NCBI RefSeq assembly: GCF_008831285.2
Contig: NC_045139.1
Span: forward strand, 6,728,204-6,792,203
DNA from: Nymphaea colorata
Taxonomy: Eukaryota; Streptophyta; Magnoliopsida; Nymphaeales; Nymphaeaceae
DNA: 64,000 bases
Reading direction: 5' to 3'
Part shown: in pieces, positions 3,701 to 44,946 of the stretch
How positions within the stretch are numbered: position 1 is the stretch's first letter
Layout: every line of letters starts with the position of its first letter
The notes under the pieces: model-generated
The model's database searches: none
Told to the model about the DNA's origin: nothing
What the model saw: only the letters and a program-made list of their open reading frames with translations
Position numbers and translations under genes: made by a program

Positions 3701-4632
3701 AATTCAAGCAATATTAATTGAAGAATCCTACATGGAAATTGCATTTTGGGCTGCCCTGAACCCATTTAAACGCAAACACCTACAGTTTCCCCTCATCTAA
3801 GCCTACGGCTATGATATATGCAGAGTTCAATGACTTGCTTTAAGAAAAAAATGAAGTGATTGGTCCAAATGCTGATAATATATGTACCCCAATTTTAGCA
3901 CAATCTAGCATTGAGAGACACATATATACAATGCTATTGCTAGCAATTACACATCACTAACTGACATGGACCTCACTAGACACGGCCTAGGATCCTAGGG
4001 TTAGGTGGGCAAGATTGCAACACTAAGGCACTAGAAACTTCATTTATAATAATGAAATGACGTTTTATCCAACAAGTTGTGGCCCCTCGGTATTGTCATA
4101 CAGCCACTTAGGTCTCTTAACTTCTCAAGGTTGTTTCCTCCCATTACAAGAAGTACAAATAAGCAAATGCATGAACAAAAATACATGGCAAACACAAAAA
4201 ATAAGGGTCAGTAAGAAAATACTCAATAAATCAAGGAATATATTTACCCATCTGGGATCACAATGGTCGCAGTACATCAGTTTTTTGATAATTAGAAAAA
4301 TCAACAAAATGTACAAGCTGTACATAACAGGACAAATTGGCCCAGCTCATTCATTAATTACATGAAACAATATTACAATCTGTTCATACACATGCAACTC
4401 CAATCAAAGATCAAAATGATTCGACATCACTTCCCAGACTGGCTTCCTGAGGATTGTGATTGCCTGAAATTAAATCTGGTATGCTGACTGTATTTCTAGA
4501 CTGCAGGAAGCCTGCAGCTAAGGCTGCACGTGTCAAACAAGGTAGAAAGTATACAGCAGATTTGTACAACCAACAGCCTTTATCTTGATACTCATTTGTC
4601 AAAAATGAATGCCAGATTGGCTCGAGAAAATT
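720..4632. other. Intergenic DNA plus 3' flank of the GRL gene
   Basis: No convincing exon is seen on either strand. Open frames are short, AT-rich and lack splice context or family motifs. The right part (about 4300-4632) is the 3' untranslated or flanking DNA of the minus-strand GRL gene. It is duplicated, with clear similarity, at about 14900-15130, which shows that the flank travelled with the gene. The stretch 2600-4100 is A-rich with no recognisable repeat. Confidence 0.6.
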
Positions 4633-7600
4633 TCACGTTGAAGCAAGGGATAGTGTTTTACCAAGGACAAATGTAACCAGTGTGACCTCAAGACAAAAGA
4701 TTGTATTGATCAACCCACGATCAACACTAAAACCAAATAGAGTGATGCCACCAGGATTTGTTTGCAAATATAGAACTGCATATAAGATAACCAAAGGTTT
4801 AGTTCAATAGAAAAGTTAAGATGCAACATCACTAATCGTCCTGACTCCTATCTGTTCCTCAATAATTCACAAGTTTCTAGTACAGTGAAGCCTTTTGCAG
4901 CAAAAGCAAGCTAGATGACAAGCAATACTAAAGCAGCAGAGATGAGGACCCCAAAACCAAAGGTCTAGCTTAGTTTATACTTTGCCAGGAGAAGCCCAGC
5001 CAACAAATGCCATGGTATACTTTTTCCCGTTTGTCAGTAATTTGTTGCCTTAAGGTCATAAAAGTGTAAGACCAGTAAGGAGACAATGGTACTTGCATAA
5101 TATGTTGCACGGACACATCTAAAATCATCAATTCAATAAGAAAAATTTTATTTCAAAATAAATGCTATCACAAAGAGATTTAAGGAACGTTGGTGTAATT
5201 CTTCATTTCACTACAAAATCATTTACTTCCAATTCGACAACTAGTTCATGAACCCTTTCCCAAAATTTGGTTTTCCAGGAAAAACATCTTAATTACATCG
5301 AATCAGGTAAATCAAACCTAAAATGACACTGGTGCAGTTAGAAAGGAAATCAATAACAACTGCATATAATACATGCCAAAGTACTTTAAGAATCCAATTT
5401 TTTTTCAAAACCGTTGTTTTACTTTTACCACAAATTTTAATCAATTCTTTTAGAAGTTATGTCGAAAATGTAATTTTTCATAGGAAAATGTGGAAAATTA
5501 TTGGAAGTTCGAAAACTTGAAAAATATAAATAACAATAAAAAATAAGATAATATGTTTTTTTTTTAACCCCAACATGGACTGTCGGGTGTCCTAGTTTGA
5601 TCCAGGCTCCAACACATCTTGTAAACTATGCATAATTTCATGTACTTTAGGAACATAGATAGAAAGTCTTTACCACTGTGACTTGTGAGTGTGCTCTCAT
5701 AAGTACTTATGGTCCTATGCATAAGCATTTGACTTTATGACTTTGTAGGCTGCTCGTGACATTATTTTTTTACAGATTGTTGTTGTATTCATGTCAGACA
5801 TTTTGATTCTTCCTCATGCATTGATGCTTATAAACCATCTGATTACAGTTTGTTCTTTCAAAGAAAGATTTCGCTGGAAGTTCATGCTTTACACTAAAAC
5901 ATGACAATACAGTATCACCTTCACTTGCATATATTGTGACAAAAGATGTGCTTCAACAGCATTTAATATTTTTTCCCTTTAACTATGTACTCTGATTTAA
6001 GGTACAAAATCATAGCAACATAACATTACAATCTAGTGGTATAAATGGCTGAATGCTAAATGGAGATTACAATCCTGGACAAAATACATGCTAAAACTAG
6101 CAAAGATGAAAAGGCCTGCTAAGCGACAAGCACCATGCTTTCAGTAAGTACAGGTCAAATAACAATGTTATGCAGTGCCCGATTTCAATGTTTTTTCTCT
6201 TCCTCTATCTATTTAGCAAGCTGGGTTACCCAGACGAGATCATAACAAGAGACATGACCAAGTATCAAACTCTTGCCTCCTCCTACTTGAAACTTTGAAA
6301 GTCTCAAGCCAGCATACCTAGTCAGCTGAATGGAGCCCTTACTGGTATTGCAGAGATATTAAGTTATGAATGATTGCGAATAGTATGCAAAGGAGGAAGT
6401 GTGTACCTAGAGCTTCTCTCTTCTGGTATGAAGAAACATTAGCTGCAAACCGCGTGTTTGGAAATCTTGTACTGCTCATGGATTCCAGATCACTCTCAGA
6501 TTCATTGGATGACAACATAAAGTCCTGATCTGTGAATGTGTTTGCAGCACAATCAAGGGATTTCTGATCCTCTACATCTGCTGCTGAACAACATGTTGCC
6601 ATTGCATGCCACCTACTTGCAACAGATGCTACTCCTTGGGCCCTATGAGTAATTTTAGCAGCTGCATGTAAGCAAAGACTTATTCCAACTACTTGAATAG
6701 TTGATGCCACCTGATAATATAATAACATAAAAAAACTTAAAACATGCCTACAAAAAATTACTGTAAACTTGAATTGCAAATATATTAAGTTATTGTTTAA
6801 ATTATACTACAAGACCAACTTGCAGTTCTACATATAATCAAATTAAGTAGAAAACAGTTATCACATCAAAATTTGTAACTGGCTTTCTGAAGGCAAATTT
6901 TCATGTTATGGAATTACAAGAAACAATAAGGCAGCCGACTTACAACAAAGTCAACAGCATTGACAAAATTGATGGTCCCGCTGTAACTTGTCGTCTGCAG
7001 GAGTGTAATGAATTGACTAGCAGTTACTGAAAAGAGTATCACAAGGAGAAACATTCGAAACCTATGGCTGATTTTGGATAAATGATGACGCAAGCGCATG
7101 TGTTCCTTCAAGAAATTAAGGACATGTGAGTTGCTTTCCAAGAGCCTTCCATACTCTTCAAAGTCGATGACCAGAGAATTGCAAACTAGATTGAATAAAA
7201 GACATGCACACAGATAGATAGTGGCCAAATACACCCATGGTGCAATAAGGCAGAAAAGAATGGCAATGTCCTCCCACCACGGCACTTTATGGTTGTAAAC
7301 TATCCAGGCAATTCCAGATATAATCTTCACAAATAAACATGGCAGCATCCAGCAGACCAAAACGGTAAAGAAACCCTGTACAAGAAGCAAAATACAGAAT
7401 TTGTCTAGTTCAAATACTGGCTGAGGATCAAAACAGAACTAAAGGCAAACTACAATAAATCCAGAATTATACGTCACATGGACAACATAATAGAGAGATT
7501 ATGGCACATATAAAGAGAAGGTTGTCAGGTGGCACATGTTTCCATGAAAGAACTGTCATATGATGGGATCAGTTTTTGAAGAAAGAGTTGTATATGTTTA

Positions 7601-10600
7601 TGTAAAATGTTCCACTTCATGGGCATATCAGAGAAAAAAACATATTTTCATCTATTCAAATGGTTATGAAGGCTCAGATACTCCTGCTCCCATAAGGTAA
7701 AGGATATCTTCTCAAACAGTTGCTTGTTTAGATCACAGAATGAGACTATCTCCTTGTGGCTTCCTCAGCAAGAGAAGTAGCACCTGACTGAATATCATGG
7801 ATTGAAGGTGCACTGTGGACAAGAAGGTAGCAACTCTAAAGGAGAAAAATAAGCCAATAACATTAGTCAAAACATAACCCGCATACCACATTTAGGATAA
7901 TTGTGACCTCCATCTATCTCACACAGATGACAGATAGTTGGTTGTGAATCTCACATTACATGTCTAACTATAGAATTATGTTATGTGAAACTCCTGCCAC
8001 ATCACGTGACATAGCCCTTAAGACACATGTTAATACATGATCCATGAAGACTATTCTTCTTCTTCAAACCCTTAATAATGCAACCTTTACAGCCATTATG
8101 TTAATACATGATCCATGAAGACTATTCTTCTTCTCCTAACCATTATGTTCAAGTGAGTATTGCTTAAGAACGTGATTCGAAGTTTTAGTGTTATAGGTTA
8201 TCCTCAGAAATTTATTGATCAGTTCAATTTGCCAAAAAATAAGTCCAGGAACTAATTTTGTGTTGTGTTAGATAGTGTAGAAGGTTTTATGTTGATGTTG
8301 TACTGGGCAGCATATAAGTAATTTTAGTGGTGCCTTGGCTAACAAAAGAAAAATAAATGCCGGATAACATAAAGTCCCAAACTCATCCACATAGGAGTAA
8401 CCAACAAACTATTTCCTTCAAGGCACTTTCTCCTACTCTTATAGATACTTTTTTCTCTTGTCCCAGTTCACTCTAGTGTAAACATAATTCGTTTACCTTT
8501 GAAAATACCATATTTGTGGTTCCTATCATTACCTTCATGAAATCATGTCATAAAGAGAAAGGCGTGGAGAAAAAGGCCATTTTTTGTATCCATTTCATGA
8601 ACTACACAAGATTAGACCAAAGGAAAGGAGAAGAGCTAAGTGACTCCCATAGCCTCTGTCACACGGATACTTGGGTTTAGCCCACGTACCCGTAATTTTC
8701 AAAATTGCCCTGTCCGTACCCGTATCGCCGTACCCTTACCCGTATCGTACCCGCACCCACGTGACATAGCACATAGCCTATAAAAAGATAAACTATAAAA
8801 GGCTCTATATCTTCCTCCATCTTGACAGATGTTCATAGTTTCTTTGTGGTAAAATCGAATGTGCAGTACAGGATGGTAAAAAGACAAGTACTTTCATGTA
8901 TCCTAGTTGCAGTAGTGAAAATTTAGAGAACAGAAGATATGGTCATTTTCCTTGGTACAGATATTAGACAACAATAAGTCTGCTAGTTTTGACACCAATT
9001 TTATTGGCTTAGAAGCAATGCGTTAAACTTGAGCATAAGCTGTTTTCACCAGCCAAACCCAAAAAAGCAAAACTTTGATTTGTTTTATCAACTAAACCCC
9101 CAAACCAGACATATGCATCATAAATTCATAATTGAGTAATCTTTTCAAGCTTAAGAATTGAAGCTTACTTTGTCCACGATGTAATTCAGTCAGTAGTCCA
9201 CTTATTAGCTAGATCACATAAATAAGGGACACTCTTAAACTGCCATTCCCTGCCAATATCATGTCCAGTTCTCCATCAGTAGCAAAAAATACAATGTCTG
9301 ACTTTGGATCGGGTAATACAATTAGGTCTAACCATATCTTTGGAAAATCCAGACAGATGAAGTTCCACTATCTTCCTTGAAGAAATGACTGAACAAGATA
9401 CTGCTATTATAGGCAAAACGGACCGACTAGTACCCATGCACATTAAGTTGAGTTGGACAGTTCATTGTCTTCAGCTCTATCTCCTGTCGTGCCAAAGGAG
9501 GATCCTGTATCATAATCTTGCCCACATATTCAATCTTTGGTGAGCTACTGAGTCAGTCCTCTTCATATTAAGAAATAGTAATCATAATCTAACTTAGGTC
9601 AACAAGAAATGCCAGATCTGCATAAGGTAAATGATTGAGGCACCAGCAGAGCCTCACAATCTCTTCATCCTTTCAATTCTTTATTTACGAATTACGATTC
9701 ATATAGTTTAGGAACAGAAAGTTAGCATTAACAAAGACATTTTTGTCTCTAAGGATTTTCCCATGACAAACTCAATAGGTCTTGCATCACGCAAGGATGC
9801 TCGAGATAGATCTTGCAATTCTGCTTCTATCTCATGTGCTTGCTGAAAAGTAATAGTGGCCTCTCAGCATTGCAGTTCATACTCAACCCGCTGACATGAT
9901 GCATGGGGAATCATGGACAATCAACTTTCTCTAAGAGATTACAATGCCAAAGGCCGTTATGTCATTGCTATAAAGTTCTCATACAAGAATGAAGTCAATA
10001 GTGCATATTGAGATCAATTAAGAACCAGATTACTCAAGGTTACAGCAACATCATGAGAATGAGCTCATTCAGAACTTCAATCGCAATCAACATTGTAGAT
10101 GCATGTGCACCTTTTTGAGTTCAGGCATTGAACTATATGTACTAAGTTTCGAAGATATAGATCCTTTAGGGTTAAACATAACTTTGAGAACTGGCTAAAG
10201 CTCATGAAGGTATAAGTATTTATACTTCTTCAATTTTCATTTGCAAATTCAACAATGTGGTTCTGTTCTATAGCAGCTAGCAGCATGTACAAATAAACAC
10301 AAAGAAATGGATCTATTCTGGCCCCACTATAAGTAGAGACAAGTAGAAAAATATATATATAGAAAGAAACGAATGAAGGAGCAGCGATAGCTAGACTATT
10401 TTTCTGCATAAGAATTAATGAAAAACTACCAAGTCATAGATTAGTCGTGAAGGAACTGCCTTGTTGACGAATTGGAGATCCCATAAAATGGAAAGCGTTT
10501 CGGATTCTCAGTGATGAAATATTAAAATACCAAGTTTCGGTATGTGCAAAAAAATAGAACGAACGCATTAAAACTTTTAGACCTGTTGAGCACCAGATAA

Positions 10601-11193
10601 CGTTTCAGTTATCAAAACAGACAGTAAATACGTTCCTCTCATTGTTGGCGATGACCAACGGAGAACAGTAACACGCCGAATATCAGTATAAAAGGCCGGT
10701 ACATCGCTCACAAAAGAAGGCGGTAGTAGGGGCTGACCTTGATCCTCATTATGTATTCTTTGCGGAAACGCTCTCCTCGACCTTGATTGTGCTCCACAAA
10801 GAGGAAGCGATGGATGCGATGCTTGCGCAGCTTGGACGAAATGTAGTGGAGGGACACTGCAGCAAGGACGACATAGGAGACGAGGATAAAATATTGGAAT
10901 TTGAAGCCGTTGAACGCGCCATAGCGTGTGATGTAGACGGTCGTCGATGGCAGCGCAACGCCGAAGCTGACGAAGAACAACCACGAGAGGATGCATCTGA
11001 GGGCGGTATCCTGGATGAAGCCGAAGGCGTAGAGAAAAGCTTTGAGCCTTTGGATGCGGCGTTCAAGTTCAAGGGTTTCCCCGTGGAGGGAGGGCTCATT
11101 CGTCTCTTCCTCGTCCACAAAAGAATTTGGCGCCTGTGGCAGACCCTCTTCCTGCTCGTCCTTTATAAGGCCGGTTCTGATTTCAACGGACAT
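4633..11193 (-). CDS. DUF3537 / plant gustatory-receptor-like (GRL) membrane protein, 4 exons
   Basis: Exons on the minus strand: 11193-10738, 7375-6944, 6710-6407, 4775-4633. Together they give 445 codons including the stop (444 aa), with GT-AG junctions and consistent phases. The protein is rich in membrane segments. Two lie in exon 1 (ILSWLFFVSFGVALP and FKFQYFILVSYVVLAAVSL), three in exon 2 (after GFFTVLVCWMLPC, around CLIAPWVYLATIYL, and FRMFLLVILFSVTASQF), one across exons 2-3 (TIQVVGISLCLHAAAKITH), and one at the C-terminus. Family hallmarks are the S-H-R-F/Y-R segment before a TM helix, the KITHRAQ motif, an acidic Ser-rich loop, SSYQKREAL, and the C-terminal NPGGITLFGFSVDRGLINT. DUF3537 proteins are about 450 aa; published structure-based work proposes them as plant homologues of insect gustatory/odorant receptor channels. 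No plant ligand is known to me. The C-terminus and an internal part are duplicated at 14890-17095. Start ATG 11193 is the first in frame. Confidence 0.9.
8027..8146. repeat. Tandem duplication, period 71 bp, in GRL intron 1
   Basis: The segment starting atgttaatacatgatccat at 8027 recurs at 8098 and stays nearly identical through actattcttcttct. There are two copies. It lies inside the long first intron (7376-10737). Confidence 0.85.
8660..8765. repeat. Degenerate short-period GTACCCGTATC repeat in GRL intron 1
   Basis: Several imperfect copies of a 10-11 base unit of the form gtacccgtatc or gtacccttacc run through 8685-8765, within a patch more GC-rich than the surrounding intron. It looks like a remnant of a dispersed repeat. 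No terminal repeats could be placed. Confidence 0.5.
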
Positions 11194-11317
11194 CCTCTAT
11201 CTCTCTCCCTCTCTGTCTCTCTCCCTCTCTGTCTCTCTCCCTCTGTGTGTGTTGTGTGTGTGTGAAATTCGAGTAACTCCCGCGGGTTAACTTCCTGTCC
11301 TCTATGGCTAATCAATG

Positions 11318-11348
<31 letters not shown>

Positions 11349-11400
11349 CTGAATAAATGAGCTCCCACGCGGGAGAACTTCCTTTCCTCCAACCTCTCTC
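11194..11400 (-). promoter_or_regulatory. GRL 5' leader/promoter with CT tract and duplicated GC-rich box
   Basis: Immediately upstream of the GRL start the DNA is CT-rich on the plus strand (GA-rich in the transcript) at 11197-11260. Next comes ctcccgcgggttaacttcct (11277-11296), a (CT)n run at 11321-11346, then a related box, ctcccacgcgggagaacttc (from about 11362). The two boxes look like an 86-bp tandem duplication around the CT run. No clear TATA box was identified, so the transcription start is not placed. Confidence 0.45.
11321..11346. repeat. (CT)n microsatellite
   Basis: Thirteen CT units between two related GC-rich boxes upstream of the GRL gene. Confidence 0.9.
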
Positions 11401-14257
11401 TTTCTCCCTTCTCAAAATATGTCAAACCTTATAAAAGAAACTGCTGAATGGTAGTTGGGTTTTGAAGGCAAAATGAGGAGACATATCATTATTGTGAAGG
11501 AGATCTGCTTCTCGACGCCTTTCCTTCTGGAGAAAGCAGAAACAGGATTCTTCTGAATTAGGACTAAGAACGAAGATATGGAGAGAAAGAGAGACAAACA
11601 ACGGGCTGGCTCTATCATGCTAGCCGTCGCTGTTTAAAAACCGGTGATGGTGGGAGAAGGGCAGTCGGCGGGGCCAAACAGTCGTCCACTGATTGATTCT
11701 CTCTTTCCTCGTCACGGTTGGGGCTGCATTCAAATCGGAGCGGTAGCTGTGATGTGTTAAAAAATGACATCGTTTCGGAGGCGCGCTTTTCCCGTGGAGA
11801 TCGGAACGGAGCTGTTCCACTGTCTCCACCTCAACCTGCAACCTGCACACTTTAGATTATGTCATCAAGTTTTCAGATCTAACTTTTACTCAAGAACCGT
11901 CGCAGAACCTGCCCACTTCAGCTCCCTTCCCTGCTTAGTTCAGACCTGTGATCAATTTTTCGTCTCTTACATCCCAGACTCGAATCTTGGCACTTAAGCG
12001 GTTGAATTCTTTGTTGAATCCAGATTTTACCTGAACCGCATGTGGTTCTTGTAACAAAATCAAGTTTAATTGGATTATACAAACCACAATTCAGTTTTGT
12101 TGATCTGATTGATACGGAATGCTATGTTCTTGCATCCAAACTCATCCAAGTATAGTTTTTGTAATTGGATTAGTCCACCCCATTGACTCATCTTGATACC
12201 GTTGAAAAAACAAGTGAAATCTTAATAGAGCCTTACAACTTGTGGAGCGTCAAAAATAGTTTATGAGGGGAAATCTTTTTCAAATAAATATTGGTAGTTA
12301 AAAATAGCTTAGAAGGGGAAAACTTTTTTAGTAGAATATTGATAGTTAAAAGGATATTATTGGCTCTTTTTCTAGCATTCCCCAAAAAAAAAAAAAAAAG
12401 TAAAATCTTGAAACGGCCTTAAAAAAGTATGGAGTTCTTAGTATGTAAGGGGAGTCCTTTTAAGTAAAATATTGATGGTTAATAAATTTTTATTGACTGT
12501 ATTTATAGTGTTATGAAAATAATTAAAATTTTGAAAGTTTTAAAAGCATGGAGTTCTTATAAATAGTTTATATGGGGAGGTCTTTCCAATTAAAATTAGT
12601 CGTTAAGAACATGCTTTTTTATGTTAAAGTGAATGTCACAATTGGTAAGATAGATGCATGCCTTTTGAGTTTTAACAGAAAACCTTCTTTTTTAAAAACT
12701 AGTTGCTTTTTACAGCCAAACATTTACCATATTTAACTGATTAGATGTTTGTGCATTACGATTCGAATTCAAGTTTTACAATAAATCAAAAAATGTCAAT
12801 ATCATATTTGAATCCACGTTTTAAATATACAATCTGAACCCAATTTGAATCCGACATTTATTTCCACATTCAAATCCAAAATCCAACTTTTAAATACACA
12901 ACCAAATCTATAAAGGTTTCCTGGACGATGGCACAGGAAACCTTTATAGCATTAATAATGCGATGGCATTAAGTTCATCAATAATGTGAAGCTCATTACT
13001 AAAAGAATAAAAATTTCTGGTTAAGGGACATTAATCATAAATCTTAATTTCTCAACATGTAAATGAAATAACTCGCTCTGAAGTGCCAACATATTTGTAG
13101 GTTTATGTAGATAAGTGCCCATATAGGCTGGCATGGGCAGTTGCCCACACCAATAAAATTTTTTTATTTATTTTTACATAGATATTTTACAAGTATTTAC
13201 TTATTTATATATGTTGTGTCTCTTGAAAAATGAGAATTTTTATAACAGTTCCTCATAGCCAAAAATTTATGACTTCGCCACTGCCCATAAGACATATCCA
13301 GGTCCGATATTTGTGTCGATACGCCGGGATTAATTTCATATAACAACATTTTTTCGATAATAAACGACTAAACGCACAAGGATGCGAGCCTGGAGGATCC
13401 AGGGTGGTCAGCTTTTAATTTCGCTGTTTTTAGCTTATATAGCTAGTTGGCTTCATGAACATTAATTTTTTATATTATACTGTCATACTATATTAATGCG
13501 CCTTTGAATGCATGTCACGGGATTATAAGAATCGGACTGTCGGTGGTTCCTGGTCTGCGGCATTATTCGAAATGCCTAGAGATATGAAATTGAAATTTTA
13601 CTTGTAAATGTCTAGTACTGCATGTATGAGCACCATTTCCTCTACAACATGGATTTGAGATCCACATTTGGGGTGGATGTGATATCTGCAAGAAATCAAA
13701 CACGACTTTGTTTTTCTTTTATTATTATTATTATTATTATTTCTTTAGCAAAATCACAAGAAAAAGAGATTATCATACGTGATATATATTTCAAGGCCTG
13801 AACAAATAAAGCAAACGAATCAGATGATTTGCTTGGTCAGCAGGCAACCCCTAGCTCTTTTTGATTTGTAAATGAAAAGTTTGCTTCTTTTCACCGTCCA
13901 TTTGGACGTATTTTTCTGTTGAGGCGTTCTTTCCTTCAAAAGCAGTTATTAGGATGGGCCAAGCCGCTTGTGTCCGTGAAAGAATAATGAAAAAGGAAAA
14001 GGATACGATATGCAACGGCTGTTTAGTACACTTTGATAAAGCGAGTTTTCACGGGAGTGTTCTAAAGTGCATTGCCCCATATATTGGCTTGCATTTATCT
14101 TGGGAGAGGGCATTAATATGTATAAATGAAAGTAAAATAATTTCGTGGGACAATGATGGCTACCGACGGCACATGACCTTGCCCCCTGTCTCCGATGTTC
14201 CGACTTGGGGTGGGACAGCACGTCCGGCCGAGCTGGACAACCTGGCAGGATGCATGA
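11401..14257. other. Spacer between GRL gene and RecQ5 pseudo-exon (left duplicated unit)
   Basis: No supported gene. Contents seen: an A run at 12386-12400, a perfect 16-bp hairpin (12908-12949), a remnant ending in tgggcagttgcccacacc (about 13130-13290) of the type also seen near 17200 and 20776, and a TTA microsatellite at about 13719-13742. The stretch around 13530-13620 aligns base by base with gaps to 17875-17970 in the right-hand spacer (cggac..gt..g..gattcc..ggcat.att.gaaat..c.agagat.tgaaatt). This supports both spacers being copies of one ancestral segment. Confidence 0.6.
12908..12949. repeat. Perfect 16-bp inverted repeat with 10-nt loop
   Basis: CTATAAAGGTTTCCTG (12908-12923), loop gacgatggca, then its exact reverse complement (12934-12949). 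No oligo-T follows and no gene is adjacent, so a terminator role is not supported. It is more likely part of a small transposable element remnant. Confidence 0.85.
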
Positions 14258-14845
14258 AAGGCTCCGGCGGCTTCTACCGGATATGCTGAACATCAAACGT
14301 CACCGGGGAATTCCGGCAGGCGCATGGCCCAAACCCTAGCCCCCCTGAAACTGCCCAGCAAGAGGGCGGCCACGCTGTCGTCGCTCGAAAACTCGGCCTT
14401 CGGGATGCCTCACCGGAGACTCGTTTCGGAAACGGTGCCCACTCATGCAGGTTGTTTCTATCTCTTCTTCTTCTTCTTCCTTCTATTTCAACTCTTCCTG
14501 TTTTTGCAATCCGGGAAGGAGTTTCCGGGCCGTTACTGTCGATCCTGTCCAGCCGGTGCGGACGATTCGATTGCGGTGGAAAGAGAAGCTAATGTTGCTG
14601 GCATAAGTGCGAAGCGAGCTCTTGTGAACCATCTGAATTCTATCGCCAATGTTTGCAGAATTGCAGTCCCGAACGGCTCTGTTTCCGAGCTCCATCATCA
14701 AGAGGGGCGGCGATGGCGCCAATTTCGTCAAGGTGAATCTCGATCGCAGGAAGAGGTTCCTCAGCAGGCGGTCAAGGTTCAGGAAGAGGCGGTTCTGGGA
14801 GGGGAATGATGGGCACGACGATGCAGGTCTAGTAGGCAGTTTACT
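14258..14845 (+). pseudogene. Truncated copy of RecQ5 exon 1
   Basis: The DNA from ctccggcggcttctacc (14261) onward follows the 5' end of the RecQ5 gene at 19270-19880 with many substitutions and small indels. Shared landmarks are ccctgaaa.tgcccagcaag, the SSLENSAF/SSLDNSAF segment, a TCTTC-rich stretch, NSIANVC/NSISNVC, the Gly-Gly-Asp-Gly linker and the basic RRSRFRKRRF patch. The second Met of RecQ5 (19381) is changed here (ctgaaactg) and the frame shifts several times. Similarity stops at about 14845 (gtctagtaggcagt), before the helicase core, so no ATPase can be made. It abuts DNA derived from the 3' flank of the GRL gene, which marks a duplication breakpoint. Confidence 0.85.
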
Positions 14846-14889
14846 TCATCATTTTATGCAGGAAAAAAGAAGGGAAAACCACATTGATA

Positions 14890-17095
14890 AGAAATGAACA
14901 AAACGTGTAGGCTGCAAACAACGGGACAAATTGGCCCAGCTCATGAATTACATGAGACAATATTACAATCTGTTCATGCATGTGCAGCTTTCATCCAAGA
15001 TGAACATGACCCAACATCACTCCCCAACTGGCTTCCTGAGGACTGTGAATGCTTGAAATTTAAACGAGTTGCTGGCTGCATTTCCAGTCTGCGGGAATCC
15101 GGCAGCGAAGGGTGCATGTTTCGAAAAAGGCTTCACGTTGAGCAAGGGATAGTGTTTTACCAGGAAGTGTCACCAGTGAGAACTCAAAAAAAGAAAAAAA
15201 AAATATAGTGTTAATCAACCCACGATCAAAATTAAAACCGAAAAGAGTGATGCTGCCAGGATTTGTTTGCAAATATAGAACTGGGAATAAGATAACCATA
15301 GGTTTAGTTCACTGGAAAAGTTAAGATCCAACATCATTAGTCATCCTGTCTGTTCCTCAATAATTCAGTGCAGTCTATAGCAGCAAAAACAAGCTGGATG
15401 ACAGTGAATAGTAAAGCAGCAGGCACGAGGACATGGAAACCACAGTGTCTACGTTATATGTTTTGCTAGAAGATCCATCAACATACTTTTTAATTTTTAT
15501 TGTTCATTCATCTAATGATTTTAGCTTGTAATTACATCTATATATATTCGTTTAAATGATTTTACAAGTAAGTAATGAAGAAATGGAATTTGAGTTTAAC
15601 TTTGTTGAAAAATTTTGGGAAGTTTGGGAACTTGAGAAACTGTAAAAAACAATGAAAAGTATAAGATAATATGTTTCTTGAGAAATTGTGTGGTTGTGAA
15701 CTATCCACACAATTCCACATATAATCTTCACAATTAAACATGGCAGCATCCACCAGAGCAGAACTGAAAAGAAACCCTGAACAGGAAGCAATTCAAGTGT
15801 AGTGAAGTTGAGAGATTAAAGCAGAAGTTAAAGCAAACCAACAAATCCAATGCTATACAGTACATGGACAACATAACATAGAGATATTATGGAAAATGCA
15901 GAGTAAAATTTGATGACTGCCCCAGTAACAGTGCCCCTAGAAATTTCTGACTCCGCTACTAAGGTAAATCATTGAGGCACCAGTAAAGCCACACGGTCTC
16001 TTCATCCCTCCAATTTCTTTCTTATGTTTGATTACAATTCATATAGTTTATGAACGGAAAGTTTTCAATATTAAGTACTAAGATATTCTTGTTCCTAAGC
16101 ATTTCCCCATGACAAACTCGATAGGTCTTGCATCTTGTAAAGTCGCCGGACCGGAGATGGATCCTGTTATTTCGCTTCCATCTCATGTGCTTGCTGAAAA
16201 ACAATAGTGGTTTCTCCATGTTGCAGTTCATACTCGAACTAATCATGTAATGCACAGGCAACCGTGGATGATCAAGAGGTTACAATGCCAATGGCTGCTA
16301 ATTAGCATGATCACGAATATCGTCCTCGATCGGGTTGTAAGGGTTTTACAATGTGATGTTTTCTTCAGGCATTTTTACGCAAAGTTGTTTTTTTTTTATT
16401 CGAAGAAAGTTTCTGTAATTTAAAAAAATCCTAAAAATTAGGTAAAAATAAAATAAGCGAGATCCCTAATAAGACAACATGAAGAATTATTAGTTAAGAT
16501 GATAAAAATGATGACTTAGTCACCATAGAAATTAAAATGAATAATTTAACTTTAACTTGTAAACTTTAAGGCCAAAATAATGCCCCAAAAACATGATAAA
16601 ACGTGTTAAATTCTTTTTTTTTTTTAAACAGATTTTTTAGTTTTTGTGATTTAATAATTTTTTAGCATAAATATCAGTTTTTTTTTTTTCAAAAGAGACG
16701 TGATATCCGTGACAATGCTGTCTAACTCATCTTTATAAAAGTTCTCATGTAAGGATGAAGTCAATAATGCACGTCAAGTTCAATCGATTGCCACAGCATC
16801 ATGAGAACTAGCACGGACATAACTACGTTTTGGATGAAAATGATAAACATGTGCTTTCTTGAGTTCATTAAATATTTAACTATACTTTTTAGCGATATAA
16901 CTTCTTTAGAGATAAACATGATAACTTTGATAACTGGCTAAAGCTCATGATATTTCAGTTTCTTCAATGTTCACTTCCAGCTAATTCAACAAAGCGAAGT
17001 AAAAGGTTAGACTTTCCTTTCCCTTAACGTTTTTCAAGAATTCAAAACTTTTGATGCAATGATCTCTTGAGCATCAGTTAGTTCTCCTTTAACGA
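14890..17095 (-). pseudogene. Decayed, gapped copy of the GRL (DUF3537) gene and its 3' flank
   Basis: Colinear blocks match the intact GRL locus in the same orientation: 14890-15480 with 4300-4960 (3' flank and last exon), 15590-15680 with 5480-5560 (intron), 15690-15900 with 7290-7500 (start of exon 2), 15955-16310 with 9620-9970 and 16735-17090 with 9970-10600 (both intron 1). The last-exon copy keeps its acceptor (tcccag) and reads YLQTNPGSITLFGFNFDRGL, then is disrupted by a T/A-rich insertion that shifts the frame. The exon 2 copy reads GFFSVLLWWMLPCLIVKI and then breaks at a deletion. Exon 3 and exon 1 are absent. The gene cannot encode a full 7-TM protein. Confidence 0.88.
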
Positions 17096-18086
17096 GTGGC
17101 CGAACCAAGATTTTTCATCTGTGGGTCACTTGCATTGGTGACACAACTTTGGTATGGGCATTGCATAAATTTTAGGGTGATAACTATTGAATTTTTTGAT
17201 GGACTGGTGTGGGCAGTGGCCCACCCTAGCCAACAAGTAGCTCCGCTACTGCCAGTAACCCACCGCCCAATAAAGAAAACCCATGCCACCAAAGTCCTAA
17301 GTTGCATCGAATAACTTGGTGGGGTACTTCATACCCTTCAGTGTCACAATCCGACAGTTTGTATTTTTAAAAAAGTAGCACCCACAAAAATCAAATCAAC
17401 TACTACCTTGGTATGCCAGCATGCATAAAGGGTTCATTGTAAGCGCAACATTTTCTTGGTACTCTAACTCATAATTACTACTTGTCTTAAGAACTTTATG
17501 TTGTTGACATATTACAGAATAAGTTGTTAATAATGGCATTATACCTGCCAATATACATTGCCATAATGAATGATTATGTCATTTTATCATCACACGTGGA
17601 ATGACATATTAACCAAGTCGCCCTCACGATATTACATGCATGTTCTTTTGTGCAAACATCACAGAATTGAAGAAAGTTTTTTCTTTTCATTCAGAATCTC
17701 TTCCCTCTTGTGGAAATTTAAAATAAAGGGAAAACTCATTTCCTTTTTCTTCATCTTTTTCCATTTCGTCCAATTCAAACACCATAAGTCATTTTTCTTC
17801 CCTTTCTTTCATCTATTTTTCTCCATCCAAACACCTTAAACTATATTATTTCCTCACATTTTCATCAATCCTAATAGGCGGACAGTTGATGATTCCAAGT
17901 TTATGGCATCATTTGAAATATCCAGAGATCTGAAATTGGAAAATCCTTCGTTAATGTCTAATATTGAAAATAAATTTGTCCAAATGTACTTAAATTTAGT
18001 GAATCCAGTCTTAAGCCACAAGAGGGGAAGAGTGTAAATTAGATGTGGATATGAAAGTCGGAGACATGCTAGAGGAATTCATGTGT

Positions 18087-18088
<2 letters not shown>

Positions 18089-18141
<53 letters not shown>
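18089..18141. repeat. (TA)n(TG)n microsatellite
   Basis: About 21 TA units followed by five TG units. Confidence 0.9.
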
Positions 18142-18460
18142 AGCTAGTAGTCCCTCATGTATATGTCCTATATATGCAATGGGAATCATCTACGTAGTTT
18201 ATTTTAAGGAAATTAGGTGGTCGATATTAAGTTAAAAAATATACACTTATTTGTATTATCAATATATAAAATGCCTAATGAGATGTTGAAATAGATCTCC
18301 ATTAAGAAAACATGTTCATTTCCTTCTTTGAAGGGTATTTTAGTTTTTTAAAAAAATATTGGGTTTTCTTTTAACTTAATTTCTACTATTTGATCTTTTT
18401 AATATCAATGACCTAAACAATTCCCATCAAGTCTGAAATACAAGGGTTTGGTAGCTACCA

Positions 18461-18487
18461 ATATATATATATATATATATATATATA
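18461..18487. repeat. (AT)n microsatellite
   Basis: Thirteen uninterrupted AT units in the spacer upstream of RecQ5. Confidence 0.9.
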
Positions 18488-19290
18488 GTAATTTTCATAT
18501 GTTTCTTTATTTTTTGACCTTGCAACATGATTGCAATTCTTATTCAACATTAATCCTTTTGACCGGTTTGCTGGTAAGTGATATTCTGAGCAGACTAAGA
18601 GGTTGTTTTTTATATTCTTTCATTCATTGATTTATAGTCATCCCTTGATTTTATGTTAATGAATGAATGGACGCCTATCATCTTTTATGTAAATAATTAA
18701 AAAGTAAAAAATGAATACATTTTGATCCTCATATATGATTTTAATCACCAAACTGGTTTGCACAAATAGTGTTAGACTTTAATGCCTTGTTTGAAGGATA
18801 AAAAGGGCGGGAAAATAATAGATGGAAAGGAAATGGAAAGATTGGAGATGGGAAAAAATGAGATGAAAGGAAATAAATGGTTATAAAATCTTAAGAAACT
18901 AAAATGAAATGAATAGTTAAAATCATGCTTGCTTAAACTAAATAGAGAAAACCAGAAAAACATTACTGAAAACATAGAAGTTTTTCTTATAAAAGCAGTT
19001 GGGATTCACTCGTAATTGGGAGGAAACACAATTTTTAGAAATTTTCATACTTTATAATTTTTTTTTTTCTGTGCATTTTATGAGATCGAGAAAATTAATG
19101 AAATAGAAGAGTCACAATTTGAGATCGGTATAGAGACGCAGGCTAGTAGTCTCAGGTTATTCGATCCGGTTCGTGAGTTACGCCAATTGATTTTTGGCGG
19201 GAAACGCAATGTTCCATCGTGTAAAAAAATTGGAACGATCATCCATCTTCTGCCCAATCGTTCCCTCGGCTCCGGCGGCTTCTACCAGGT

Positions 19291-20835
19291 ATGCCGACCG
19301 TCAAACGCCACCGGAGACTTCGTGCAGGTGGAGGGATCACCTCCCAACCAAACCCTAGCCCTGATCCCGATTCCCTGAAAATGCCCAGCAAGAGGGTGGC
19401 CTCGCCGTCGTCGCTCGACAACTCGGCCTTCAGGATCAGGTTGTCGAGGGATGCCTCACCGCAACCCGTTTCGGAAACGATGCCCGTCCGTGCTGGTTGT
19501 TTCTCATTCGCTTCTTCGTCCTTCTCTTCCAACTCTTCCAGCTTTTGCAAGCCAGGGAGGAGTTTCAGGGCCGTTACTGTTGATCCTGTCGTGCCGGTGG
19601 AGAACGATTCTGCTGCGGCTGAAAGCGCAGCCAATGTTTCCGGTGTAAGTGCCAAGAGAGCTTCTGTGAGCCATCCGAATTCGATTAGCAATGTGTGCAG
19701 CGCGGGAATGGCTCCGTTTCCGAGGTCGATCGTCAAGAGGGGCGGCGATGGGGGCAATTTCGTCAAGCTGAACCTCGATCGCGGGAAGAAGTTTCCCGGC
19801 AGGCGGTCGAAATTCAGGAAGTTTAGGAAGAGGCGGTTTCGGAAGGGTAATAATGGGGAGGACGATGCTGGCCTGGTCGGTTCAGAAGGGGAATGTGATT
19901 TGCAGGCGAACGAAGAGGAGAGATGGAGTTTGGATGGCGACTCCGAGTTGTGGAAGGCGGTGGCTGCAGCGCGAGAGGATCATTCGGATCAGAACCTTAT
20001 AAATTTGTTGAAGCTAACGCATGGTTTTGATTCTTTTCGTGATGGGCAGCTCGAGGCAATCAAGAGGGTGCTGGCTAATGAGTCCATGATGCTGGTCCTG
20101 CCTACTGGCTCTGGGAAGTCATTGTGTTATCAAGTAATTCCGATGCTAACACGGTGAAATCCTCTTTTAGTTGCTCTGTTTGCTTGCGAAGATTCACTTG
20201 GCTTTGGATGTTGTGCAGTTGCCGGCTTTGATTTTGCCTGGAATTGTATTGGTCGTGAGCCCTTTGGTGTCCTTGATGGTCGATCAGCTTCGGCAGTTAC
20301 CGCCCATAATCCCAGGAAGTCTCCTTTGTAGCACCCAAGTAGATTTTCCTCCTTTTCTCTGGCTAATTTCTGATTGTACTTCTTCCCAAGGGTGCCAATC
20401 TCAAAATTTCCTTGCAGACTAGCAAAGAGGCAGCAGAAACAATTGAAAAAATCCGCTCTGGGGCTATAAAGGTAATTTGTGCGTAGGCTTTAACAAGCCA
20501 TGCTATGTCATTTACTCAGCTGTCGCTTATAGTGAATTGAGTCTGCGGAACCGAAGGGAGAAGAGAGGACACCTTCGTTTACAAGTGACTAGAAATTATG
20601 CGTGACGTGTGTGACATTGGCATGGTCTGATTTTAGTTCCTGTCTTCCTGAACTAAAAAGATTTCTCCTGTGTGAGAACATAAATCTGGAATTTCCATGC
20701 TTCACCAACATGTTAATAAGAAAAATTGCCTGAAGTATCAATATGAAGATAAGTACTTTTTGTGGCTCTGTGTGGGCAAGTGCCCACACGCGCTTCTGCC
20801 CCTCATATATCGTTCATTTCATTTCATGCTTCTGA

Positions 20836-20885
<50 letters not shown>

Positions 20886-23800
20886 CTATTGCTTTATAAG
20901 CGCTGTCCCCTTTTTTGTCTCACATTAATATATGGCTTTAACATTTGAATGAGATATCAGGTAGACATTGTGAAACTTCTTTTTCCATCCTGTGGAATTT
21001 TATTTTGTCCTGTGTTGATATCTGATAAATAGTCAAAGGTCGCTGTTTTTGCAGACCATGTGTTTAACGTTTCTTGTTTATCAGGTACTTTTTGTTTCAC
21101 CAGAGCGACTACTGAATGCAGAATTCTTATCAATATTTGCTTGTGAGTCGCTTGTATCTTTTGTTGTAATCGATGAAGCACACTGCCTTTCTGAATGGTT
21201 AGTTGAATTTTCTATTCTTTTGCCCATCTTTCTCCTGCTTTGTTTGTAGGAGATATGGGCCACCTTTGTCCTGCTTTTTTTCTAGGAGAGAGCAATTTCA
21301 ATCTTCCTGTAGTAAATTGACATTCTGAACTAAGCTCTTAACAGGTCCCACAACTTCCGGCCTTCATATATGAGACTTAGGGCTTCTGTCCTTTGTGATA
21401 AGCTTAATGTGAAATGTTTTCTGGCAATGACTGCAACTGCGACGTTGAAAACATTGAACTCTATTATGTCTGTCCTTGAGATTCCACCTGCCAATCTTAT
21501 TCAAGCTTCTTGCATCAGGAAAAACTTGCAGTTGTCTGTGATATCAAGCAAAAACAGGAAAGTGAATTTCTACATGTTTTTATTGCCATTATTTATTTCA
21601 CTTTATTTTCATATTGTAGTGCATATTATATGCATGTCTGCTGTTTTTTCTGAAAGCATGTGGTTCTAATGTATCCATATATTTCTGAATTTAGAATTCA
21701 TGAATGCTGTTATGGTGCACATATGAAGGAACTGTAAATTTATTATTTCTATCATCACATGTGTTCCGATTTTCTACTAGTGTCCTGCTACTTGTTGACT
21801 GCATGCCAGCTTAATGGTTTCAACGTTGTATGTGTGATTCATGGAAGCACAAGCATGATCATGCTGGATTTACATATTTGTTATCTTGTTACACATTTAT
21901 AAGTATATTAGGATTTAAAAATATCTGTTGTTCCAATTAAATTCTATAACGGTATCCTTGTTCCTATAGCATTTGTAAATGCTCAATGATTTGTTGGTGA
22001 CATAAGTGCAGATTAAAAGACCTTCTAGCATTAATTAAATCTTCACAAATGGCAGCAATCAGAAGCATCATAGTTTACTGCAAATTTCAGGTTTATTTAT
22101 GGTTTCCTTTTACCTTTTTTTAATAATGTCTGAAATCATCTATGTGTCCTTAATGCTTCTTTAAGACATCTCATATGGGGTTATTACTGGTCTGTGGTTT
22201 GGCATCATCTCTTTTTTTTTCCTAACTTCTATCATTTATGTCCTTATAAAAATCAAAACACATGGTTTCTTTTCTGAATGCTATTATTACTACTGTTGTT
22301 GAGAGATCATGACATATACTAGCATCCTTGTTCACAGCTTCCACTCACTGGTTTCAAATTTCAATATCCCGCTGCTAGGCAAGGAACATGATACATGACA
22401 GAGACGAAGGCAGTCATGGCCAAGAGTTTTGTTGTGGCTATCCTTAAACTGTCTTCGAAGTTAGAGGATCACCTTTGCTTGCTGACTTAGATATGCAAAT
22501 ATGTGCACAAATAGATGGACATGTAGATGGGACTTGAGAGTGCATATGTTTTTGACAGCATAACCTCGGGGTTTGAACTGTGGACATCTTAATAACATGG
22601 GTGCTTAAGGGGAAACCTTTGAAATATCATGAGAGTACAATACACAACTTTTTAATTGTGTGTTTAGGTATATCATATTTTGTATTTTGAAATATAACTG
22701 TATGGTTGCTTTTTTCTCATCCTAGTGTTAACAAATATGATACTCTGGAAGGTTGATCAAGCATGTGATGTTTTTTTCATGAGGAAATGACCTTGGATGT
22801 TTTATTTAATGTTAGGATTTTAAAGTTTAACGAGGAATGAATTATCTAAATATTACAAATTTGAGACAGAGTTTAGCAAGGGGATATTTATATGGTTTAT
22901 AAACATTATGGATAATGTTGATGTGTTGGGGATAACATAAGACCTATTCTGTTTACTAGAAGCCCAATAAAAGCAGCGGATTTGAGACTCTGGGGTTTTC
23001 CTTGAATTTTTTTTAACAAAGGATTTTCTGCAATAGAGATCAGAAACGGAGAAATTGAATGAGTAATTTTGTGGAATTTAGTGGCCTTAAGGCCTTTGAA
23101 AAATCAATTAATTAAAGGGTTAACCCTTTAAAGAGAAGACCTGAAATGCTTAAAAGGGAAAAAGGGCTTGGGTTCACAAACGGAAGGAAACCAAAGAAAA
23201 AAAGTGCGTGGCTAGCAAGAGGTTGGAATGACAGGGAACATAGGAATCTTCTTAAACCAGCCTTTGTTGTTGGAAATTCTCTTAATGCTCATGCCTTGTT
23301 AAAAGAAGTGTTACAGATATCACAATATTTTCGAAAATATCGCGATATTAACGAGAAAGACAAAAAAAAAAGAAAGAAAAAATAGTGAAAACTTGAAATA
23401 TTTTGAAAAAAATTAGAAAATATATTTTTGCATTATTTTTGCGATTTTTCCCTTTTTATCTTTTTTAATGTTGATATCATCATGGATTCAAATTTCAACT
23501 TAAACTAAATTATTTTTCATCATTAAAATGTTCTTTTTATCACTTTTATCTAGTTGTATTTATGTTTTCGTATTAGGTTTTGATTTGTTTCATTTTTACT
23601 TATTTTTTAAATTTTTATTTTTTAAAAAAGTTTTCCAATTTTTTCCCAAGAAAAACAACTTTTCCAAAAAATACCCTAGAAAAATCTCGCTGTTAAAAGC
23701 CCAAGAATGATATTTGTGACAATGGTTAAAGTGGTGATTAAGCAGTAGAGGTGAGTAGGAGTGAGGAACAATGCCAAATCTGCATTCTAGTCTAAATTCT

Positions 23801-26800
23801 TATAAGGGATTACCAGTGCTGTGTTAATTTCCTTGTATAAGAATGCACATGCTTGATTTACCAGTTCCACAAACTTGGCACCAAACTATGAGAGTCAGTT
23901 ATGGTGCATATGGTCAACCTTGAAGCACATAATTAAGGCACTACCAGTGGCTTCAAGCATATTCCTCATAATTGGATCAAATCCACACTCTATCCATGGC
24001 CTACATATGAGCAGTCAGATCCATTACACCTCCTTTGTAATATTACACCACATATGTTATATTTTCAAAATATTGCCAAGAAATATATATTGCAGTAAGA
24101 TCACAACATCTTGCAATTTCTTTAAAATGTTCTCCTTTTTGTATATTTTAAGCCTCTACACTTTCTACATTTTCCTTTTCATTGAAATGTATCTTTATGA
24201 TTGTTTCATTTTATTTTGCAAAAAAATGTCAGAAAAGTTATTGCATCAGGTGCTTGCTTCAAAATTTTCTCGAAAAAGAAAGAAAATCACATTCACAAGA
24301 AAAATGATTTCACAAGCAGACTTACTGCAGAATTTCTGATAATGATATTGATCACAGATTCACATTGAAAAACAAATGAACGTGCAAAATGTCATAAAAA
24401 TTTTTGATTTACTCTTTTAACTAAATAAAGACATTCCTGGCAGGCTGGCACGGTTATTATCCTCCAGAACTTCTTACCCTATCAAGTTCCACACTCATCA
24501 GAATAGCTTTGAAAGTCTAGGTTTCTCTTGAAAGGTAATATTATGATTTGCGGGATAGTGTCAGCAGCACTATAAAAACTAGGATTGCAAATGGTGGGGA
24601 TCTAGTCTGAGGGCTTTTCATTTTCTGTTGCACAGGATCCTATTCCAACCCAATCTTTAATCTACTTTGCCATCCTGGATCCAATCCACTTGCTTTCCTA
24701 CTACATACAAGAAAAACAGATGTGGACCTTGAATAACCACCAGTTCACCTAACTAGTCTGTGATTCTACTGCCTTGAAAAACATTCAGAATCTTCAGAGG
24801 ATGATTGCTTTAGTAAATCAATGTCCTACTGAGGTTCAGATATCTTGTCTTTTGAATCTCCTCCATTGTACTCTAGGTTACAGCAAATCCATTCCTAACT
24901 TCTCCTATAATGCCCTCAAAGAAGTTTAGATGCAAGTCCACAATCCTTTCATAAAATAAAAAATGAACAACCTAGGGTTAGGAGCCCGTACTTTGTTACT
25001 TAATAAAAAAAATTGCTATTTTCTTGCATTTTTTCATTGGAGAGCGAGTTGGATGGTATTTTTAGGCATTTATATGTTTGTCTTTTGCAGTATGAAACAG
25101 ATTTAGTCTGCAAGCTTCTTTCTGATAATCAGATCAGTGCAAGGGTAAGTATCATATTGCCCAAGTTTATTTTTACAATTGAAGCTATACTTTACGAGTC
25201 CAAGTTGTTTGATTAATTATTACGTTTAGATCTACCACAGTGGCATCCCAGCAAAGGATAGGATTCTCGTGCAGAAATTATTTTGCTCCAACAAAATCCA
25301 AGTGGTAGGATGCTTGTTTGAGAATAATTTTTTTTTTATTGAGTTGATTGGAATATCTTTCCCACTTTCAAAATTTGAGTTGCATTGCTAACAGAACTTG
25401 TTATGACAGATTGTAGCTACTGTGGCATTTGGCATGGGTTTGGACAAGAGTGATGTTGGTGCTGTATGTGCATTTATTTATTTTATTTGTCTTTTGAGTT
25501 TTGACACGTCGAGATTTTTTTCCCATTTTTGTGGAATATTTGTTTTATATATTTAAGTTATCCCTAGTTCTCAAATGTATTTCTTGCTTTCAGGTTATTC
25601 ATTACAGCCTGCCAGGAAGCATAGAGGAATATGTTCAGGTGAGCATATTTACATGAAGTTTATGAAGCCATTTTTCTTTGTACTGTGTTTATGGTTGTAT
25701 GTTTTTATGCTTTATAGGAGATTGGACGTGCTGGACGGGATGGATGTCTTGCTTTTTGTCATATCCTTCTAGATGATTCTACATACTTAAAACTTCGCAG
25801 TCTCGCATACAGGTACTGTGCACTCCATACAAAGTTCTGTTTCATATATGTTATTGTGAACAAACTGCTTACACTTAATGTTGTCACTTGTCAGTGATGG
25901 TGTAGATGAATATGCTGTTAACAAATTCCTTTGTCATATTTTTGATGATGGAAGTCATCATCTCAATAAAGTTCATTCCTTGATTGTTGAAACATTATCA
26001 CGTAAACTGGATATGAAAGAGGAGGTACTGTTCAATTTCAACTCTATCAACTGCTTTTTCAGGGTTAGTTTTTTAGTTTTTTATGTTACTTATGTGTGAC
26101 AAGCTCCTTGTTTATCTGATCTAAAAGTTTCTATTGCCTAAGTTGGTGTTAAAGAAACAAGTATCTTACAATTCAGGAATGCATCACAGCGTGATCAAAA
26201 TCAATGCCGTATTTGTTCTGTAAAGCTAATTTTAAGTGGATGAAATACTGATTGATCATAATATTGAAGAATATATGCCTTACACACTTTTTTCAATGTA
26301 AATGTCAGTCACTTGCTTTTCGTCCTGGAAGAATAATTGAACGTAACACATTTTTAATTGTAATCAGAATTTATGTGATTTTTGGTAGTATTTCAGTCAT
26401 TGAATTTTGTGTTGACAATGCAGCATAATAAGATGGAACATTGTTGTGGGTGGGAGGCTGGAAGTAAATGGTTGAATAAAACAATGTGAGGGTCAAGATA
26501 GAAGTGGGAGACATTAGGTTTGGCTTATACCTAAGGTTATAGCCAATGATAGAGGAAAGATGCTTGTGTTAGTGGCAAACTCTACAACATTAGAACATTC
26601 TTAGATGTCGCTGTTATTAGGAGCTGGATGGTATATCAATTATTTGTCAAGAACTTGTCCTCAAATACAGATCTTGAGGAAGAGGTTTCCATTGAATTTC
26701 CTTAGTGAGTAGTCAACTTTTTAATCTCAAAAGAGTTGTGTTTGGGTGCAAAAATGCATCCCATGTTTGCATTCTAAAATATTTAGTGCAAGCGGCAATG

Positions 26801-44532: not shown

Positions 44533-44604
44533 TCCGTTGTAGTCTAGTTGGTTAGGATACTCGGCTCTCACCCGAGAGACCCGGGTTCGAGTCCCGGCAA
44601 CGGA
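44533..44604 (+). tRNA. tRNA-Glu (anticodon CTC)
   Basis: 72-nt cloverleaf without intron. Acceptor arms are tccgttg and caacgga. The A box region is tagtctagttggtta, the anticodon stem ctcgg/ccgag encloses loop ctctcac with CTC at positions 34-36, and the B box is ggttcgagtcc in the T arm cccgg/ccggg. An oligo-T tract follows (tctttttcccc then tttttt, 44606-44622), as expected for RNA polymerase III termination. CCA is not encoded, which is normal for nuclear genes. Confidence 0.96.
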
Positions 44605-44946
44605 ATCTTTTTCCCCTTTTTTTAAGTGGTTTAACCAAAATTTTATGTGCATCCTAAGTCCGCCTTTCCTAACGAACCTCTTTGTCCTCCCTTTTAAGGA
44701 AACAAGCTGAACTTGTTCAAAAGTGGCTTGAGTTCGGTCTGCCTGTTACATGAGTCAAGGTTCAATATCGATACAAGCTGGCATTTATGCAAACGTGCTA
44801 TGTTCGTGCTGCGTCAAGCTCAACCAGCCTTTGGTCGATCCGAATTTAGGAAGCATATTATATTGTACAAAGTTGTGTTCATGTTAAAGAGATATAATAG
44901 CTTCATTCATGCATGTTCATTATGATCCGGATTTTATAATTCCTAA

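Follow-up and report, generated by a model that had tools for sequence, protein, structure and literature searches.

In a five-species survey, tandem-duplicate pseudogenes of plants are described as non-processed fragments located beside their parent gene, with the highest tendency to retain flanking homology (PMC7935947). Partial gene duplicates, as treated in a review, end at a breakpoint within the copied gene (PMC3449122); in Triticeae, HvPUB15 has a conserved partial duplicate, HvARM1, which is a plant case with an assigned function (PMC6092874). Here we describe a locus with likenesses to all three, found in a 64,000-nucleotide stretch of the Nymphaea colorata genome (C2:6728204-6792203, hereafter the window). 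It carries a GRL gene for a membrane protein of the plant family DUF3537, for which kinship with animal gustatory-receptor-like proteins has been argued (PMC7746228), a RecQ5 helicase gene, and one fragment of each. Like the tandem pseudogenes of the survey, the fragments are non-processed, lie beside their parents and keep flanking homology; unlike them, they stem from two neighbouring parents, apparently in one event. The RecQ5 copy ends at a breakpoint within the gene, as in the partial duplicates of the review, whereas no recruited coding sequence or new function was seen. In contrast to HvARM1, the RecQ5 fragment is frame-broken and the GRL fragment is devoid of three exons, or most of them. 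Our comparisons indicate that the locus very probably arose by one head-to-tail tandem duplication that broke off within RecQ5, after which the spare GRL decayed.

Pairs of corresponding blocks were collected by self-BLASTN (the first 22 kb against the window, and unit 1 against unit 2) and by pairwise alignments. The colinear blocks delimit two adjacent units. Unit 1 (4285..14836, 10.6 kb) extends from the GRL 3' flank to a truncated RecQ5 exon 1, and unit 2 (14884..19880, 5.0 kb) runs from the decayed GRL to a point midway through RecQ5 exon 1. Eight block pairs connect them, all forward and all in one order from 4285/14884 to 14836/19880. Block 1 (4285-4542/14884-15130) takes its outer edge, 4285/14884, from the pairwise alignment. 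Block 2 (4631-5061/15131-15531), block 3 (5491-5561/15606-15679), block 4 (7290-7524/15691-15912), block 5 (9605-9959/15939-16300), block 6 (9950-10255/16714-16992) and block 8, which is RecQ5 exon 1 (14260-14836/19268-19880), come from self-BLASTN and alignment, and block 7, in the spacer (13526-13620/17872-17966), from self-BLASTN of the two units and alignment. When the first 22 kb were compared with the window, the blocks appeared as nine rows with E values of 1.3e-120 to 5.4e-5. Together they cover the GRL 3' flank, pieces of GRL exons and introns, one block of the spacer and RecQ5 exon 1 up to its middle. One shared order of eight blocks has a rough chance of 1 in 40320, the blocks being not fully independent. 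A single weak reverse match between the units was detected by self-BLASTN (4333-4426/15501-15592, E 0.003).

Adjacent copies in the same orientation, built of colinear blocks, are the hallmark of a tandem segmental duplication. The sequence-only reading from which we started had proposed the order intact GRL, RecQ5 exon 1 fragment, GRL fragment and intact RecQ5, and the eight forward colinear pairs agree with it, as does the colinear forward diagonal obtained when the two units were compared by self-BLASTN. Of the duplicated span it had proposed, from about 4290 to about 19880, the right end holds and the left edge shifts slightly, to near 4285. Its statement that the GRL fragment is not a retrocopy is upheld as well: pieces of introns, two splice acceptors, the 3' flank and the spacer block were all copied, which rules out a processed pseudogene. 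The identities of the blocks, 70-85%, exclude that one unit is an unmerged allele or was duplicated by the assembly.

Divergence between the units points in the same direction. Kimura two-parameter distances (K) of blocks 1 to 8 are, in order, 0.217, 0.209, 0.176, 0.211, 0.257, 0.275, 0.394 and 0.199, that is, 0.18-0.28 outside the spacer and 0.39 +/- 0.09 within it. Because these values do not differ significantly (homogeneity over eight blocks, Q = 9.06, p = 0.25), clearly different block ages, an outcome that would speak against a single tandem duplication, are not seen. Break-repair filler that copies gene fragments has been proposed as a source of plant pseudogenes (PMC7935947), and two independent local insertions of this or a similar kind might have set the RecQ5 stub and the GRL fragment between the intact genes. 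It is extremely improbable, however, that they did so here, since a single colinear event fits the order and strand of the pieces as well as the 3' flank, the copied bits of intron, the spacer block and the shared divergence.

Homologous spacers, which the sequence-only reading had also predicted, were found in part. In the 95-bp spacer block, 67 of 95 positions are identical without any gap, a score that no shuffle attained, whether the unit 2 spacer (200 shuffles) or the block itself (1000) was shuffled. The remainder of the spacers shows no forward-strand similarity above chance, and both contain dispersed repeats. The outcome that would weigh against duplication, a spacer comparison with no colinear diagonal, was thus not seen, yet the diagonal consists of a single block. 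In all, five gaps between anchors and three comparisons of flanks and junction gave nothing above chance on the forward strand (none of eight; the best score was reached by 26 of 200 shuffles). Genome searches, here and below, refer to one Nymphaea colorata assembly of 407.8 Mb in 783 contigs. With the spacer block as query, only its own place was matched, the 70%-identical partner lying below the reach of the search; this rules out a dispersed repeat. A conserved promoter role for the block is unsupported, its K being the highest of the eight. Very little credence is given to the idea that the copied head-to-head spacer serves as promoter in both units and that transcripts of the RecQ5 5' stub (unit 1) and of the GRL copy (unit 2) regulate the intact neighbours.

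Next, we examined the ends of the duplicated segment. The RecQ5 match stops at 19880, 253 bp before the donor of exon 1 (after 20133), which, as judged from the alignment, places the right breakpoint within that exon, some 210-250 bp short of its splice donor. Because the breakpoint falls there, the upstream RecQ5 would, under the single-event model, have been incomplete from the start. This argues against both genes having been complete in both units at first, and the view that a different gene was lost from each copy is not supported as worded: the RecQ5 copy would have been truncated at birth, and only the second GRL, potentially complete, would have been lost later. In its strict sense, that view amounts to a longer duplication covering both genes whole, followed by a junction deletion that took out the 3' portion of the upstream copy of RecQ5 together with any sequence beyond the second GRL 3' flank. 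The same final arrangement is expected from such a course, and the 47-bp junction (14837..14883) could be deletion-repair filler. An extra event is required, however, and the junction shows nothing above chance when compared with 4100-4284 and 19881-20160 (shuffle test, forward strand), although a longer duplication does not require such a match. We regard this course as unlikely. On the RecQ5 diagonal, 18 of the 47 junction bases match, a level equalled by 6.6% of window offsets. In the stretch 14853-14877, picked afterwards by eye, 14 of 25 bases match (equalled by 0.37% of offsets), so that similarity may reach 19921. A genome search with 14800-14890 matched only itself, ruling out the junction as a dispersed repeat.

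The apparently complete RecQ5 gene lies on the plus strand and begins near 19291. Its exon 1 region (19268..20133) has in-frame ATGs at 19291 and 19381 and a GT after 20133; RecQ helicase domains were found downstream of it, in further exons spanning 20219..25949, and the gene may run to about 30.5 kb. In a rough exon model with ends set from open frames, GT directly follows nine of 15 exon peptides and AG directly precedes eight of 15. The helicase exons are open in this model, and in that sense the gene is apparently intact. Among solved chains, its core scored best with helicase Q4 (5lst, 268.8 bits), ahead of a bacterial-type RecQ (233.9), Bloom (221.1) and Q5 (213.1); the query behind these scores had been assembled from pieces of exons, with some mistyping. 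This ranking agrees with the placement of plant RecQ5 in the human RECQ4 subfamily, not with human RECQ5 (PMC6947026, Table 1), and by sequence score the core in the window is closest to human RECQ4, as expected of the plant RecQ5 subfamily.

The RecQ5 exon 1 fragment (14260..14836, plus strand) is a truncated, frame-broken copy of 19268-19880, and weak similarity may reach 14877. Of the nine indels in its alignment, seven have lengths not divisible by three (five of seven when counted from the ATG at 19381), and the parental reading is split over two frames with stops in both. By codon position, K amounts to 0.171, 0.165 and 0.286, as against 0.257 and 0.275 in the two blocks of GRL intron 1, a pattern that fits one free copy compared with one constrained gene.

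The apparently intact GRL (DUF3537) gene occupies 4633..11193 on the minus strand. Its four exons lie at about 10730-11193, 6937-7375, 6398-6716 and 4633-4775; the edges are approximate except for the acceptors of exons 2 and 4. The open reading frames of these exons match PF12056 at profile positions 3-113, 110-263, 260-365 and 363-391 of 391, so most of the domain is covered. Two direct repeats of 48 bp, 94% identical, were noticed in intron 1 at 8027-8145. The GRL pseudogene (14884..16992, minus strand) retains exon 4 with the 3' flank, a part of intron 3, the initial 86 bp of exon 2 and some stretches of intron 1. The remainder of exon 2, as well as exons 1 and 3, was not found in unit 2 by self-BLASTN or in the shuffle-tested gaps. 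DUF3537 is matched by the fragment in two pieces, with E 2.9e-8 and E 0.0014, the latter at 18 bits falling below the 25-bit cut-off.

Functional partial duplicates are known in plants, barley HvARM1 among them (PMC6092874), and one or both fragments might likewise be functional, through a transcript or through a short protein. In the GRL fragment, the exon 4 piece does sit in an 82-aa open frame with its splice acceptor kept, and the exon 2 piece is open. Against this stand the two-frame, stop-containing reading of the RecQ5 fragment and its divergence, which resembles that of half-constrained sequence. Within the exon pieces of the GRL fragment, 16 of 145 sites differ at codon positions 1 and 2 and 11 of 71 at position 3, few sites in all, and these differences need no constraint on the fragment. 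A function of this kind is thus very improbable.

Elsewhere in the genome, a DUF3537 scan in which all 16 candidates were scored gave 13 matches, of which 11 fall in three gene loci and one in the GRL fragment; the remaining one is a weak piece at C2:19.10 Mb. When 9.5 kb around each of the two other GRL genes and around the GRL-like piece (L017-L019) were compared with positions 1-32000 of the window, no DNA similarity emerged at E 1e-5. RecQ5 exon 1 (19268-20140) is matched at the DNA level in two places of the genome, both at this locus: its own position and the fragment. The sequence-only reading had called both genes single-copy; this holds for RecQ5 exon 1 at the DNA level, while GRL is one of three DUF3537 loci with no other DNA-level copy seen. 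No copies left by whole-genome duplication were seen elsewhere, neither the RecQ5 exon 1 matches nor the other GRL loci giving support for them. The weak piece (L017, C2:19102450-19102668) combines a partial DUF3537 match of 28.8 bits with a separate weak exon 4-like match, and is possibly a decayed or divergent GRL gene.

Dispersed repeats occur in both units; the four repeat searches each scored the best 40 of 182-605 candidates, which makes their copy numbers minimum values. In unit 1, they lie at 8651..8773, in GRL intron 1, and at 13119..13293, in the spacer, which also holds a weak tandem direct repeat (67%) at 12325-12596. The unit 2 spacer contains one at 17083..17262 (core about 17095-17251) and an element with inverted repeats at 18087..18493. 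A further one, at 16341..16719 (core about 16421-16580), is located inside the decayed GRL intron 1, and the blocks flanking it meet in unit 1 at about 9950-9959, where the repeat is absent. This empty site points to insertion after the duplication. By eye, the ends of the insert 16301-16713 resemble short imperfect inverted repeats, as in a small DNA transposon; an alignment test did not place them. Repeats are ruled out as the sole cause of the length difference between the units, as unit 2 lacks two GRL exons, 1 and 3, along with most of exon 2, and repeats are present in both units. A tRNA-Glu (CTC) gene lies elsewhere in the window, at 44533-44605.

Taken together, a single tandem duplication, as claimed by the sequence-only reading, is supported by forward colinear blocks in one order whose divergence does not differ significantly. 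The copied segment would have begun about 350 bp beyond the stop codon of GRL and ended midway through RecQ5 exon 1, the break arising perhaps by unequal exchange or break repair. Unit 1 would have kept GRL and received a RecQ5 truncated at birth, and unit 2 a potentially complete GRL beside the sole complete RecQ5. Large deletions, and the insertion of one repeat or more, would then have eroded the spare GRL, and the stub of RecQ5 would have drifted free of coding constraint. Several observations weigh against this course of events. The K of the spacer block tops all eight, though not significantly, and spacer homology survives in that block alone. K before the ATG at 19381 is low (0.173 +/- 0.048); this stretch may itself be coding, with a start at the ATG at 19291. 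In the GRL fragment, what is left of exons 2 and 4 still reads open, and therefore the time at which the second GRL died is not fixed. At the junction, up to 47 bp are left unexplained by so few matches on the diagonal, and a larger duplication with a deletion across it would give the same sequence.

The locus is most likely a fresh example of the well-known course of duplication and decay (PMC7935947, PMC3449122). For annotation it carries a warning: what lies at 14260-16992 is most likely a set of pseudogene fragments and not genes. The locus also offers a worked case in which one duplication breakpoint can decide which of two neighbouring genes is keepable in two copies.

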